Positions 6,103-62,534 of a stretch of 64,000 nucleotides of DNA are shown piece by piece (position 1 is the stretch's first letter; each line of letters opens with the position of its first letter). The translations under genes were made by a program, and so were the position numbers. This DNA comes from Haloglomus litoreum (lineage in GTDB: Archaea > Halobacteriota > Halobacteria > Halobacteriales > Haloarculaceae). A model generated the notes under the pieces. It was not told where the DNA came from. It made no database searches and saw nothing but the letters and a program-made list of their open reading frames with translations. Where the stretch lies: NCBI RefSeq assembly GCF_029338515.1, contig NZ_CP119988.1, forward strand, positions 682,001-746,000, read 5' to 3'.

Positions 6103-6861
6103 ATGTGGACCCCGCTCGGACGCCCGGTCGACGTGAGCTGGCCGGTCGGCGGTAGCCGTACCGGGTCGGGGTCGTCGCGACGCGACGCGACCAGCGTCCT
6201 CGTGACCGCCCTGCTCGTCGTGAGTCTCGCACTCGCGGGGGGGAGCGTCCTCTTCGTCGCATCGCAGGACGCTCCGGGGACCACGGAGTTCGCGCTGTTG
6301 ACCCGGAGCGATTCGGGCGATCTCGTCGCCACCGGCTACCCGCAGAACCTCACACGCGGCGAGTCCGCGTCGGTCGTCATCGAGGTCACGAACGACGGTC
6401 GGGTCAACCGGGAGTACACCGTCGTCGTCCTGATACAGCGGGTCCGGATCGGGCCGGCGGGGACGCCACGGTCGGTCCTCGACCAGCACGCGCGCGAACC
6501 GCTCCGGGTCGCGGTCCCGGCCGGTACGACACGCCATCTCGCCTACGATATCGCGCCCGACGTGGTCGGCGAGGCGGTCCGGGTCCGCTTCCTGCTCTAC
6601 CGCTCGGACCCGCCGCCGGGGCCGGCGGTCACGAATGCTCACCGGGACCTCCACCTCTGGCTGAACGTCTCTGGCGACTCGCCACAGCGCATCCGTCCCG
6701 GTACCGACGCGGACGGGCCGGCGGCGGCGCTGTCGGGTGTCGATGCGTCGCAACGAGCTGTCACGGGGCGTCGGAACGTGGCCGACGCGACGCGGCGTAT
6801 CCGGATGGGACGCTCCGCTGCCCACGGTGTTCACGGGAGAAACGCCGGGACAGGGATTTGA
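6103..6861 (+). CDS. DUF1616-type membrane-anchored protein
   Basis: A 252-residue protein with one clear transmembrane helix near residues 29-50 followed by an extracellular domain. That domain holds YPQNLTRGESASVVIEVTND and EYTVVVLIQRV, matching the soluble part of haloarchaeal DUF1616 proteins. N-x-T/S sites (QNLT, LNVS) are possible glycosylation points. It diverges from the flippase gene, and DUF1616 genes often accompany glycan clusters. The last 40 or so residues are of poor quality, and the 3' end overlaps the opposite-strand tRNA-Ser by 19 nt. The true C-terminus could have been extended by loss of a stop codon. Function unknown. Confidence 0.7.
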   Translation: MWTPLGRPVDVSWPVGGSRTGSGSSRRDATSVLVTALLVVSLALAGGSVLFVASQDAPGTTEFALLTRSDSGDLVATGYPQNLTRGESASVVIEVTNDGRVNREYTVVVLIQRVRIGPAGTPRSVLDQHAREPLRVAVPAGTTRHLAYDIAPDVVGEAVRVRFLLYRSDPPPGPAVTNAHRDLHLWLNVSGDSPQRIRPGTDADGPAAALSGVDASQRAVTGRRNVADATRRIRMGRSAAHGVHGRNAGTGI

Positions 6862-6923
6862 ACCCTGGATCCCAGAGGGAACACGCTTTCCAGGCGTGCG
6901 CCTTACCACTCGGCCATCCCGGC
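6843..6923 (-). tRNA. tRNA-Ser (anticodon GGA)
   Basis: The minus strand folds as a complete tRNA. A 7-bp acceptor stem pairs GCCGGGA with TCCCGGC. The anticodon stem pairs CACGC with GCGTG around loop CTGGAAA, giving anticodon GGA. A long variable arm (TCCC/GGGA) is typical of serine tRNAs, and the T arm reads CAGGG-TTCAAAT-CCCTG. The discriminator is G and CCA is not encoded. No intron is seen. Confidence 0.95.
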
Positions 6924-7693: not shown

Positions 7694-8180
7694 CCGACAG
7701 CGACGACAGAGCCCTGTTGCTGGTTCGGCCGAGCGTTCGTACGTGGTGGTTCCACCGGAGCGCTAGTGGCCCCACACCTCCCCGCGCTCGCGCCGTCAGA
7801 GCAAGCTCTGACGAGCTGCTCGAAAATCGAAGATTTTCGGCATGACGAGACGGCTTCGCCGTCTCGAACCACCTCGTTCGCTTCGCTCACGAGGACGCCG
7901 AGTGTTCCGGCCCCTCGCCGCAAGGGCTCGGGAGCCTCCGCGGCGGAGGCGCGAGCGCGCTTCCTGGTCTCGGAACCGGCCTGCTGAGCAACCGCTCTCC
8001 GGCCGGGAGCGCGTGGTGAGCCCCGAAGCGGGCGAACCCGTGCGACCTGGGGAAGGGCAGGGCCACAGTGCCCATGATACAACTGACTCCTGGCGGACTC
8101 GAAGGGCGAGAGCGCGAGGGCTTCGGAGGAGTCTCGGTGGTCGCCGCTGTCGTGGGAGAGCGCGAGGGCTTCGGAGGTGG
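7694..8180. repeat. Dispersed inverted-arm repeat, copy A (left arm mostly missing)
   Basis: This fills most of the 690-nt gap between ridA and the kinase-like gene. It shares ordered blocks with the copies at 43.8 and 61.6 kb. These are GTGGTGGTTCC then GCTAGTGGCCCCACACC (about 7742-7780), CGCGCTCGCGCC, GCGCGAGCGCGCTTCCT, GGCCGGGAGCGCGTG, CCTGGGGAAGGGCAGGGCC and TGGCGGACTCGAAGGGCGAG. The terminus GAGAGCGCGAGGGCTTC follows in tandem duplicate (around 8108 and 8156). The loop carries three perfect micro-palindromes (7795-7812, 7821-7839, 7846-7866). Long frames in it are not credible genes. Confidence 0.75.
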
Positions 8181-43176: not shown

Positions 43177-43704
43177 ATGCCAGACGAGTTACCGGCCGCG
43201 GCGGCCCGTGCGTTCGACGGCCACGACGCCTACGAGCGGGCGGCGGGCGGGCCGGCGTTCGTGCTGACGACCACGAAGTTCGACGCGACCGTCACGGCCC
43301 GCGACGAGGGCGAGCCCGAGTGGAAGCTGACCTACGAGCTGGAGGTCAGGGCGCCGATGCTGTCGGCCGTGACTGCCGACGAGGTCGGCCCCGCTCTCGA
43401 GGAGGGCTGGTTCGACACGCTCGCGCTCCGCCTGGAGGACGCCCCCGGCGTCGTGCGCGATTCGGTGGACGCCGACCTGGCGGTGGCCGAGGAGGCCGGC
43501 GACGCCGTCGCGACCTACCGCTTCCAGTTCGGTGACGCCGACCGCGCGGCCGCCATCGCGAAGGCGTTCGCCGAGTACGTCGAGGGGACCTACATGGAAG
43601 GTATCGTCCCGGGCTACGACTACCAGCCGCCGGTGTCCGAGATGCTGGCGTCGGCCCGCGGGGCCGGCGGGGACGAGGAATCCGGCGACCCGATGCCGTT
43701 ATAA
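43177..43704 (+). CDS. DUF5813-like haloarchaeal protein
   Basis: A 175-residue protein (MPDELPAAAARAFDGHDAY) with alternating strand segments, TTTKFDATVTARD, EWKLTYELEVRAPML and VATYRFQFG, and a C-terminal helix (IAKAFAEYVEGTYMEGIVPG). It matches the layout of the haloarchaeal DUF5813 family. It is divergent from the SPFH gene. No catalytic motif is seen and the function is unknown. Confidence 0.75.
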   Translation: MPDELPAAAARAFDGHDAYERAAGGPAFVLTTTKFDATVTARDEGEPEWKLTYELEVRAPMLSAVTADEVGPALEEGWFDTLALRLEDAPGVVRDSVDADLAVAEEAGDAVATYRFQFGDADRAAAIAKAFAEYVEGTYMEGIVPGYDYQPPVSEMLASARGAGGDEESGDPMPL

Positions 43705-43800
43705 ATAATTAATATTGTCTACTTAATAAGTGAATTCTTTATTGAGGTTCAATTTGGGGAACAATAGAAATATGTTCGTAGCATTTGTGTAGTGTGGGAC
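43705..43800. other. AT-rich spacer between DUF5813 gene and repeat B
   Basis: About 90 nt of clearly low-GC DNA (for example AATAATTAATATTG and TACTTAATAAG) sit between the stop codon and the repeat. A similar AT-rich tract borders repeat C. It could end transcription of the DUF5813 gene. Confidence 0.45.
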
Positions 43801-43804
43801 ACGG

Positions 43805-44352
43805 CGAAGCCCTCGCGCTCTCGACCACTCCGGGGCTCGCTGCGGTCCTCGGCCTCGCTTCGCTCGGCCTGTGGTCCTTGCGTCGCCCGGGAGGGTTCGA
43901 GAGCGCTCGCCCTTCGAGTCCTCCAGGGGGTTGTGTTTCGGGTCGAGCGACGCTCGTGGTGGTTCCGGCGGAGTGCTAGTGGCCCCACACCTCCCCGCGC
44001 TCGCGCCGGTGTGTTCCGGCACGCTCCCTGCGGTCGCGGCCTCCACGGGGATGGCGCGAGCGCGCTTCCTAAATCCGGAACCGGCCGGCCGACCAACCAC
44101 TCCCCGGCCGGGAGCGCGTGCCGAGGCCCTTGCGGCCGAGTGCCGCGCGACCTGGGGAAGGGCAGGGCCACCGCGCCCGTGACACTCTCGACATCCTGGC
44201 GGACTCGAAGGGCGAGCGCGCTCAGCGGTTCCCGGACGACGCAAGCACCGCAGGGTACGCCCGGAACGGCGGGTGAGCGAAGCGAACCCGCCGCATGCCC
44301 GGACCCCGAGGAGCACAGCGAGTCCCGGAACCCTGAGCGCGCGAGGGCTTCG
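43805..44352. repeat. Dispersed inverted-arm repeat, copy B (most complete)
   Basis: Left arm 43805-43932 runs GAAGCCCTCGCGCTCTCGAC, CTTGCGTCG, CGCTCGCCCTTCGAGTC. Right arm 44193-44352 repeats these blocks in inverted order: TGGCGGACTCGAAGGGCGAG, GACGCAAGC, GCGCGAGGGCTTC. The centre holds GTTGTGTTTCGGGTCGAGCG, CCACACCTCCCCGCGCTCG, an internal CGCGCTCGCGCC/GGCGCGAGCGCG inverted pair and CCTGGGGAAGGGCAGGGCC. The copy fills the gap between the DUF5813 gene and the HerA-like gene. Minus-strand frames through it are shadows. Confidence 0.8.
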
Positions 44353-44453
44353 TAGGGGGTTTCGTTGTCGTTGTAGGAGTCGCCACGGTGGGATTCTCCG
44401 AGAACCCAGTCTAGCCACAAGGCCCATGCCGGAATCCACCAACCTGGCCACCA

Positions 44454-45788
44454 ATGAGCGACGTGCCCGAACGGATCACCGTCGGCGAGGGCGTCTCGCT
44501 GCCGGTGATGGACGTGCTCGCGGGGCGGGGGTTCGTCACGGGCAAGTCGGGGTCGGGGAAGTCGAACACGGCGAGCGTGCTGCTGGAGGAACTGCTGGAC
44601 CTCGGGCTGCCGGTCGCCGTCATCGACACGGACGGGGAGTACTACGGGCTGAAGGAGGAGTACGAGGTCCTCCACGTCGGCGCGGACGACCGGTGTGACC
44701 TGCAGGTCGGGCCGGGCCACGCCGACCGGCTGGCGACGCTCGCCCTGGAGGAGGGCGTCCCGGTCATCGTCGACGTGTCGGGCTACCTCCGGGAGGACGA
44801 CGCCCGCGAGGTCGTCGCGAGCTTCGTCCGGGCGCTGTTCCGGGCCGAGCGCGACGCCCGCACCCCCTTCCTCCTCCTCGTCGAGGAGGTCCACGAGTTC
44901 ATCCCGCAGGACGGCGGCCTGGACGAGGCCGGGGAGGCCCTGGTCCGGGTCGCCAAACGCGGGCGCAAGCGGGGCCTCGGGATGGTGGGGCTCTCCCAGC
45001 GCCCCGCCGCCGTCGACAAGGACGTCATCACGCAGTGCGACTGGCTCGTCTGGCACCGTCTCACCTGGGAGAACGATACCCGGGTCGTGAAGTCGCTCCT
45101 CGGGAGCGAGGCGGCCGAGGCCGTGCGCGACCTCGACGCGGGCGAGGCGCTCCTGCAGGCCGACTGGGAAGAGGGGGTCCGGTGGGTCCGCTTCCGGCGC
45201 AAGCGGACCTTCGACGCCGGCGCCACCCCTGGCCTGGAGGACATCGAGCGCCCGGACCTGAAGAGCGTCGACGAGGCGCTCATCGCCGAACTCGCCGACG
45301 TGGACGACGCGGCCGCCGGGAGCGCCGCCGATGTCGAGGAACTCCGCGAGCAACTCGCCACGAAGGAGGCCCGCATCGAGGAGCTGGAGGCCCGGCTCGT
45401 CGAACTCGAGGGGGAAGACGCCGACTCGGGGGCGGCGGACGCGTCGGGCGAGAACGAGACCACCCCCGACGGGCCGACGGAGGACCCGCTCTGGGAGGCC
45501 GGGCGCTTGCTCGTGCATCTCGCGCGGGGCGGTGGACGCCGGGCGGCCGGCGTCGCACGGCGTGTCGCCCGTGCTCTCACGCTCCCCCGACCGGGCGGCG
45601 GCTCCCAGCAGGGGAACGGCCCTTCGACGGCAGCTCCGACGGCCCCCCCGACAGCCGGCAGTGACGCCGTCGATGCCACCGATGTCGGCGCCGCCGATTC
45701 CGCCCCGGGTACCACGATGGACGGTGACCCGGCGATGCACTACCCCACGCTCGACGACGAGGTCGGCGAGGGCGAACGCTCGGCGTAG
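44454..45788 (+). CDS. HerA/FtsK-like ATPase (DUF87)
   Basis: A 444-residue protein. Walker A GKSGSGKSNTAS at about residue 30 and Walker B FLLLVEEVHEFIP with a following VGLSQRPAAVDKDVITQCDW block are typical of the HerA/VirD4/FtsK superfamily of DNA-pumping ATPases. Residues 1-280 form the ATPase, 285-325 a coiled coil (ELREQLATKEARIEELEARL), and the rest is low complexity. No nurA or conjugation gene adjoins it, so its role (DNA transfer, repair or chromosome work) is open. Confidence 0.85.
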   Translation: MSDVPERITVGEGVSLPVMDVLAGRGFVTGKSGSGKSNTASVLLEELLDLGLPVAVIDTDGEYYGLKEEYEVLHVGADDRCDLQVGPGHADRLATLALEEGVPVIVDVSGYLREDDAREVVASFVRALFRAERDARTPFLLLVEEVHEFIPQDGGLDEAGEALVRVAKRGRKRGLGMVGLSQRPAAVDKDVITQCDWLVWHRLTWENDTRVVKSLLGSEAAEAVRDLDAGEALLQADWEEGVRWVRFRRKRTFDAGATPGLEDIERPDLKSVDEALIAELADVDDAAAGSAADVEELREQLATKEARIEELEARLVELEGEDADSGAADASGENETTPDGPTEDPLWEAGRLLVHLARGGGRRAAGVARRVARALTLPRPGGGSQQGNGPSTAAPTAPPTAGSDAVDATDVGAADSAPGTTMDGDPAMHYPTLDDEVGEGERSA

Positions 45789-49415: not shown

Positions 49416-49650
49416 ATCCTGGTGGACTGGAAGGGCGAGCGCTGTGAGCCGAGCGGAAGCGAGGCGAACGACGGAAGTCGCAGCCCGCGAAGGGAACGGA
49501 GCGACCGAGCAGGACCGTCTTCCGGACCTCGACGAAGCACGCCGACGCAAGCACTGCAGGCCGAGCGGAGCGAGGCCGAAGCGCGCACCGAGGCGCGCGA
49601 GTCGAGAGCGCGAGGGCTTCCGAGGAGTCGTCGGCTGTCGTCGCTGTTCC
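49416..49650. repeat. Dispersed repeat, copy D (solo right arm) inside the lysine gene cluster
   Basis: This fills most of the 309-nt gap between dapD and lysA. It reads ATCCTGGTGGACTGGAAGG, GGGCGAGCGC, GACGCAAGCACTGCAGG, GTCGAGAGCGCGAGGGCTTC and GGCTGTCGTCGCTGTT. This is the order of the right arms of copies B and C. The left arm and centre are missing. It separates two halves of an otherwise tight operon. Confidence 0.7.
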
Positions 49651-61642: not shown

Positions 61643-62534
61643 GAAGCCCTCGCGCTCTCTCACAACCCTGCTAGTGACAGAGCCCCCTACGAAGCCCTCG
61701 CGCTCTCGACCGGCCGCGCCTCGCTGTCGTTCGAGAGAGCGAAGCTCTCTCGTGATGACGAGAGACGCCGCAGGCGTCTCTCGAACCACGCTCCTCGCCT
61801 CGCTCCGCTCGGCTGCGGTGCTTGCGTCGTCGGGGCCGGGTCGAGAGCGCTCGCCTTCCGGCAGAGCAAGCTCTGCCGACGTTCGCCTCGCTTCGCTCGG
61901 CTCACCTTCGAGTCCGCCAGAGGGGTTGTGTTTCGGGTCGAGCGACGCTCGTGGTGGTTCCAGCGGAGCGCTCGTGTCCCCACACCTCCCCGCGCTCGCG
62001 CCGGGACGGCTCGCCACGCTCCCTTCGGTCGCGGGCTCGCCGGCTGAGGCGCGAGCGCGCTTCCTGACCCCGGAACCAGCCGGCCGATCCAGCCGCTCGT
62101 TCGGTGCGTGCCAGCCTCGTCAGTCGAACTGGCGTGCGCTGGCGGCTGTGCCGGGGGCCAGCCGCCTCTAAGCGCACGAGGGCCGAAGCGCGCAGCGGTA
62201 GCGAGCACTGCAGGCGGTTGGGGAGGCACGAGGCCTACGGCTACCGACTGACCCACGTGCGGTCCTGGTGACTTCCGAAGGTGAGCCGAGCGAAGCGAGG
62301 CGAACGCCGGAAGACTCCGTCTTCCGGAAGGCGAACCCGCTCGACCCAGCCCGGGCGACGTAAGCACTGGACTGCATGCCCGGAACGGCGCGAGCGAAGC
62401 GAGGGCCGCATGCCCGGAACAGGAAGCGCGCAGCGAGCCCCGGATGGTCGAGCGGGTGAGGGCTTCGGGAGCAGTCTCGCTGTCGTCGCACGCACCTGAA
62501 CCAGAGAGCGGGTGAGGGCTTCGGGAGCAGTCTC
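61643..62534. repeat. Dispersed inverted-arm repeat, copy C (longest)
   Basis: This fills most of the 1.1-kb gap between the epimerase and esterase genes. The left arm has GAAGCCCTCGCGCTCTC in two tandem copies (61643, 61691), GCTTGCGTCGTC and CACCTTCGAGTCCGCCAG. The centre has GTTGTGTTTCGGGTCGAGCG, CCCCACACCTCCCCGCGCTC and GCGCGAGCGCGCTTCCTGA. The right arm has GAGCGGGTGAGGGCTTCGGG twice. Perfect micro-palindromes occur at 61732-61752, 61759-61783 (11-bp stem) and 61860-61877. Plus- and minus-strand open frames over it are shadows. Confidence 0.78.

Follow-up and report, generated by a model that had tools for sequence, protein, structure and literature searches.

A repeat family of Halobacteria with inverted hairpin arms, probably a non-coding mobile element

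The closest described counterparts of the repeats analysed here are the REP elements and REPINs, bacterial elements with RAYT (Y1 HUH) transposases (PMC3116915, PMC3733652), and the SMR-A and SMR-B repeats of Haloquadratum, which are units of about 110 bp whose inverted ends are prominent and bear no relation to known transposons, with no transposase and no reported target duplication, and whose mobilisation is enigmatic (PMC3119063). SMR-A is inserted mainly into IS605-type elements and into PATEs, the palindrome-associated transposable elements of haloarchaea, which in turn have no terminal inverted repeats and carry palindromes matching IS605-type elements (PMC3119063).

The family under study is found in a stretch of 64,000 nucleotides from Haloglomus litoreum (NZ_CP119988.1, positions 682,001 to 746,000), hereafter the window. 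Its likeness to REPINs lies in the many intergenic non-coding copies, which are thought to be moved in trans, and in the palindromic units found in inverted pairs, since neighbouring opposite-strand arms recognised by the arm profile face one way in 47 cases and the other way in 0; furthermore a GTAG-type tetranucleotide precedes many arms of genus g74 and some of Haloglomus, being absent or varied elsewhere. However, the arm measures 105-125 nt against 20-40 nt for a REP, the core reaches about 400 nt, and no Y1 (RAYT) gene is found near the arms. Y1 transposase loci have no arms within about 1.5 kb and four arm-bearing genomes (G026, G034, G058 and G041) have no Y1 match, and an IS200/RAYT partner is not supported by this search. 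By description the family also resembles the SMRs in its size of about 110 bp and its inverted ends; its reading frames have no family match and no duplication was read, the boundaries being unsharp, and its copies lie between ordinary genes and not, as those of SMR-A, in PATE or IS605 palindromes. With PATEs it shares heterogeneity, lack of coding capacity, palindromes near the ends and the absence of a target duplication, whereas the Haloglomus copies have inverted arms and a link to a Y1 element was not found, as Y1 loci are without arms. Similarly, short non-coding units with inverted ends and variable presence recall MITEs, but no parent transposon with these ends was found in a transposase search that covered the Y1 loci, and no target duplication was found at empty sites with unsharp boundaries.

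The attC sites of integrons are imperfect hairpins with a variable stem sequence and with conserved structure and unpaired positions. The arm of the present family may be likened to them, as its stem also appears variable and its structure and unpaired positions conserved, although neither integrase nor cassette array nor reading frames were seen with it.

Taken together, we consider these repeats to be, with a probability of roughly 60%, a family of non-coding, non-autonomous mobile elements of Halobacteria with a DNA hairpin arm of about 115 nt as their recognition unit, and the unit found in Haloglomus is probably a REPIN-like element of about 550 bp with inverted arms around a structured core. 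The family is most likely REPIN- and SMR-like in behaviour and lies outside REPIN, PATE and Rfam on the features tested, and we do not place it among the SMRs or MITEs.

Copies in the window and their anatomy

The sequence-only reading had noticed four loci with common ordered blocks, and BLAST among the four copies (A to D) reproduces them. It had also proposed a genome search with copy B, and this 601-nt copy indeed gives 145 BLAST matches in about 40 places of its own genome, with E down to 1e-142 against other copies and with 70-88% identity over hundreds of bases for the better ones. In the source genome (G000, 4.70 Mb) a core can be recognised in about 40-70 copies and the arm has 114 matches, and congeneric genomes have core-bearing copies in similar numbers. 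Searching the genome for a 22-mer of the core at up to one mismatch gives 28 occurrences as opposed to 0 for the reversed control pattern, and copy B folds as a single strand with z = -8.2 against 100 dinucleotide-preserving shuffles (DNA parameters). Since it folds far better than its shuffles, similarity of low complexity is excluded, and the matches, the 22-mer control and the folding together rule out chance or low complexity as the source of the repeat. The repeat family is thus confirmed and is larger in extent than first noticed. The copies are mostly placed between genes, as had been claimed for the four loci, and the view that no credible protein is encoded holds as well, given that a 187-aa reading frame across copy B and other frames tested over the copies have no NCBIfam family match and that some tandem units hold in-frame stops; a protein-coding reading was accordingly rejected.

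The basic unit is the arm, an imperfect hairpin of about 115 nt (105-125 nt) running from AAAGCCC to GCCCTTTC, the ends of which pair as AAAG/CTTT or GAAG/CTTC. Its outer stem varies freely together with its pairing partner, and there is high conservation in the internal-loop boxes CTCGCTGCGSTCCTCG ... CTGCGGTSCTT. Two arm types, beginning with GAAGCCCTCGCGCTCTC and AAAGCCCCCGCCCGCTC, can occur within one copy. In Haloglomus two inverted arms surround a structured core of about 270 nt, with a median arm-to-arm length of 545 nt, and a full-length copy reads tandem partial ends, left arm, core, inverted right arm and again tandem ends.

In copy B the left arm (43805-43925, plus strand; arm profile 43806-43925; covariance-model match G000:725805-725925, with covariation) is an imperfect hairpin of about 120 nt with the conserved ends GAAGCCC...CGCCCTTCGAGTCC and the conserved internal-loop boxes CTCGCTGCGGTCCTCGG and CTTGCGTCG. 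The right arm (44197-44353, minus strand; arm profile and match of covariance model R2 at G000:726197-726352) is the left arm inverted with a longer hairpin tip. Between them lies the core of about 270 nt (43926-44196, plus strand), for which alignment A1, its consensus fold and a match of covariance model R1 at G000:725979-726171 indicate a multibranch structure with the closing stem CCTCCCC/GGGGAAGG and the conserved string GCGACCTGGGGAAGGGCAGGGC. The central pair CGCGCTCGCGCC/GGCGCGAGCGCG seen earlier is real, and no helix of the family covaries better. In the covarying core stem CGCGCNNGCGCC/GGCGCNNGCGCG the NN pair is TC/GA, GG/CC, CA/TG or GA/TC. A conserved pseudoknot joining the loop of the hairpin to the stretch that follows CTTCCT was considered and rejected as inconsistent when alignment A1 was inspected by eye. 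The copy lies between a DUF5813 gene (43177-43704) and a gene for a HerA/DUF87-like ATPase (44454-45788), with an AT-rich tract, evident from the sequence, to its left (43705-43790, no strand assigned).

Inverted outer arms had been claimed for copies B and C; this stands for B, but copy C (49416-49647, minus strand; BLAST blocks and arm profile) is partial, with one recognisable arm left (49528-49620, minus strand) beside an inner fragment. The two complete two-armed copies of the window are B and D, the latter having a left arm at 61689-61857 (plus strand) and a right arm at 62327-62466 (minus strand), both recognised by the arm profile, and a first core part at 61905-62098 (plus strand) which by BLAST is 86% identical to that of B. 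Copy A (7742-8115, plus strand) is made up of diverged core pieces at 7742-7795 and 7902-8115, its arms not being recognised by the profile; a tRNA-Ser gene is found about 0.8 kb from it (6843-6923, minus strand).

The tandem partial ends usually comprise 0-3 extra units, mostly 48-60 bp apart, and at the outer flanks of L009, L081, L085, L003 and L032 spacings of 48, 51, 54, 57 and 60 bp are found. Spacings are multiples of 3 in 36 of 47 cases, the copies not being independent, and this probably reflects triplet slippage. Each outer unit consists of an arm end and a GAC-rich spacer, and as they are ordinary tandem duplications of these, a CRISPR-like array was rejected. The hairpin tips of arms and core change fast, with words like GCTCGCTTCGCTCGC (for instance at 43860-43885 of the window), and some tips carry extra hairpins of 40-60 nt.

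Base pairing in arms and core

Earlier the repeat had been taken to fit either a non-autonomous element or a structured RNA, and many copies with compensating changes had been named as a sign of the latter. Such changes are indeed strong in both core and arm. The arm scores 0.427 for covariation as compared to 0.133 when shuffled, 94.7% of the cells of its alignment are paired, and 167 cells have both sides changed. Together with the ornate nature of the conserved core, this would be in agreement with a large structured non-coding RNA in many copies, transcribed as arm, core and arm from an AT-rich promoter at the left and selected for its fold as RNA. The AT-rich tract is indeed found more often on the left, in 55 of 95 copies, but it lies on the right in 19 (and on both sides in 0). 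At L010, one of the copies, the upstream gene too ends in synonymous codons that are AT-rich by comparison with relatives.

The RNA reading is however made rather unlikely by the kind of pairs that the helices contain. G·U accounts for just 8 of about 963 paired cells in the arm (0.8%), A·C mismatches are at least as frequent as G·U in the stem count of left and right Haloglomus arms alike, and G·U is not in excess over A·C in the core helices, whereas the tRNAs of the same loci have 9 G·U and 0 A·C in 222 pairs, a small control with copies that are not independent. The RNA-type compensation in which G·U is favoured over A·C is thus seen in neither core nor arms. Since compensation is almost all Watson-Crick and shows no excess of G·U over A·C, pairing at the DNA level is favoured rather than a structured RNA, and of the two earlier suggestions, for both of which signatures were found, it is the mobile element that is favoured, as the RNA lacks this excess. 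In addition, the two arms, being inverted, would show opposite strands within a single transcript, and Rfam has no match to the family at E <= 1. We found no paper describing the repeat family either, so that the earlier impression of no named family is borne out.

The near-absence of G·U would mean that pairing is selected or re-copied at the level of DNA. Re-copying could in principle suffice, if GC-rich inverted repeats were kept perfect by template switching (quasi-palindrome correction) as a neutral by-product involving neither selection nor transposition. Although the scarcity of wobble pairs, the variable hairpin tips and the tandem duplications of the ends are in agreement with this notion, it is very improbable, because more than correction is needed to explain unpaired boxes that are invariant throughout the class and units that appear at new sites. 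So many compensations almost devoid of wobble provide a natural data set for asking whether selection acts on DNA hairpins.

Distribution, gain and loss, and turnover

The arm covariance model has matches in 339 of 391 sampled haloarchaeal genomes and in 77 of 86 genera, and all 39 arm-model matches in a phylum-wide sample (n=247) are haloarchaeal. Under strict filters 23 of 392 genomes of the order have matches to the core covariance model, the cores being mostly diverged. The core string with one mismatch allowed is present in 49 of the 391 class genomes, and three genomes from other genera have 60, 49 and 9 copies; a single Streptomyces match to this string may be due to chance. Outside Haloglomus the unit may consist of two arms about 30 nt apart or of one arm with a tail. 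As to viral or phage carriage, exact patterns have no match in IMG/VR, and BLAST yields none among phage records.

The retention across the class, together with the strict Watson-Crick pairing and the conserved internal loops, could alternatively suggest a cis-acting DNA site kept by the host in many intergenic places, such as a hairpin for binding, chromosome structuring, recombination or replication priming. This is quite improbable, since the number of copies per genome lies anywhere between 0 or 1 and about a hundred, also among relatives (the two species of g74, for example, have 92 and 15 arm matches, about a sixfold difference), since the genes around the copies show no preferred orientation, and since sister species differ by the loss and gain of sites.

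Empty orthologous sites, which had been named as support for mobility, are in fact present in sister species. Of the fetched copies of G001, 28 of 40 are at the same site as a fetched copy of G002. At L212 an element is present in G001 but missing from G002 and G000, and on the sequences compared a gain in G001 is the best reading. Of the same three genomes, G000 alone is occupied at L010, L211 is filled in G001 and G002 but not in G000, and G002 has no element at L203. As for copy B, the DUF5813 orthologues of G001 and G002 have no adjoining element, and since no HerA-like gene is found beside them, the copy lies at a synteny break relative to these genomes. In g74 several single-arm units are absent, together with some adjoining DNA, from the sister species, where the sequence on either side is present. 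Since copies come and go between close relatives in this manner, the family has the look of a miniature mobile element, and it may be that an enzyme encoded by host or plasmid reads the folded DNA of the arm and moves the element in trans. No target-site duplication was read in the empty-site comparisons, the boundaries of which are not sharp; at occupied sites the extra DNA extends about 100 nt or more past the arms. Furthermore, no two fetched cores within a Haloglomus genome are more than 88% identical, and there is therefore no sign of a recent burst in this genus. The single-arm units of g74 (G379/G192) share about 50 nt upstream, TTCAGATA...TGTAG, and often seem to be placed between divergent genes; the gene downstream of units L331 and L317 presumably encodes a malate dehydrogenase.

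At shared sites the cores turn over. Between G001 and G002 orthologous cores are either at least 96% identical or partly to wholly replaced, and at sites shared with G000 core identity is 0.69-0.87, close to that of unrelated copies, although orientation is identical in every case where both flanks are shared. That sequence turns over while site and orientation stay speaks for a host-kept cis-acting site, and the good conservation of orthologous copies in sister species speaks for the RNA reading. However, conservation of orthologous cores does not clearly exceed that of the adjacent intergenic DNA, so that there is no strong sign of a function in place. The simplest inference is that cores were replaced through recombination with related strains. 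Among the fetched copies of the three genomes, a subset of all copies, no donor for a swapped core exceeds about 93%, and that for part of the core, most being at about 80-87%; a donor within the genome may therefore still exist. The hairpins might favour slippage and recombination, which would give rise to the tandem ends and allow core variants to be exchanged in place.

A related element on plasmids

A related arm also starts a non-coding and unannotated element of about 640 nt, complete or partial copies of which occur at 254 places in 165 haloarchaeal plasmid records, mostly at 80-97% identity, examples being L362:3995-4655 (NZ_CP101167.1) and L363-L374. It has no Rfam match near the gathering score. 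In 9 of 13 sampled loci the gene downstream encodes an OB-fold protein of about 288 aa with weak SSB-like or OB matches. The arm thereby occupies a conserved locus on plasmids, for which reason a fixed function in cis fits better here than purely selfish movement, and under the host-kept cis-site explanation the plasmid form would be a counterpart of the chromosomal sites, its conserved locus and downstream OB-fold gene being points in favour of that explanation.

If one starts instead from the preferred reading of a mobile family, it is possible, though doubtful, that the repeats make up a class-wide archaeal mobile system in which an unrecognised enzyme provides movement in trans, with the folded hairpin of about 115 nt as the sole recognition site and with cores exchanged in place, and in which the plasmid form beside the OB-fold, single-strand-binding-like gene is the source or the autonomous counterpart. 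A family present in about 87% of the sampled haloarchaeal genomes, yet absent from Rfam and unannotated in the plasmid records inspected, would, if mobile, point to an undiscovered archaeal mobilisation enzyme, and the plasmid form is readily open to experiment in model haloarchaea, Haloferax mediterranei among them. The body of the plasmid element is absent from all fetched Haloglomus chromosomal loci, and L058, from another genus, is the one chromosomal locus in which it was found.
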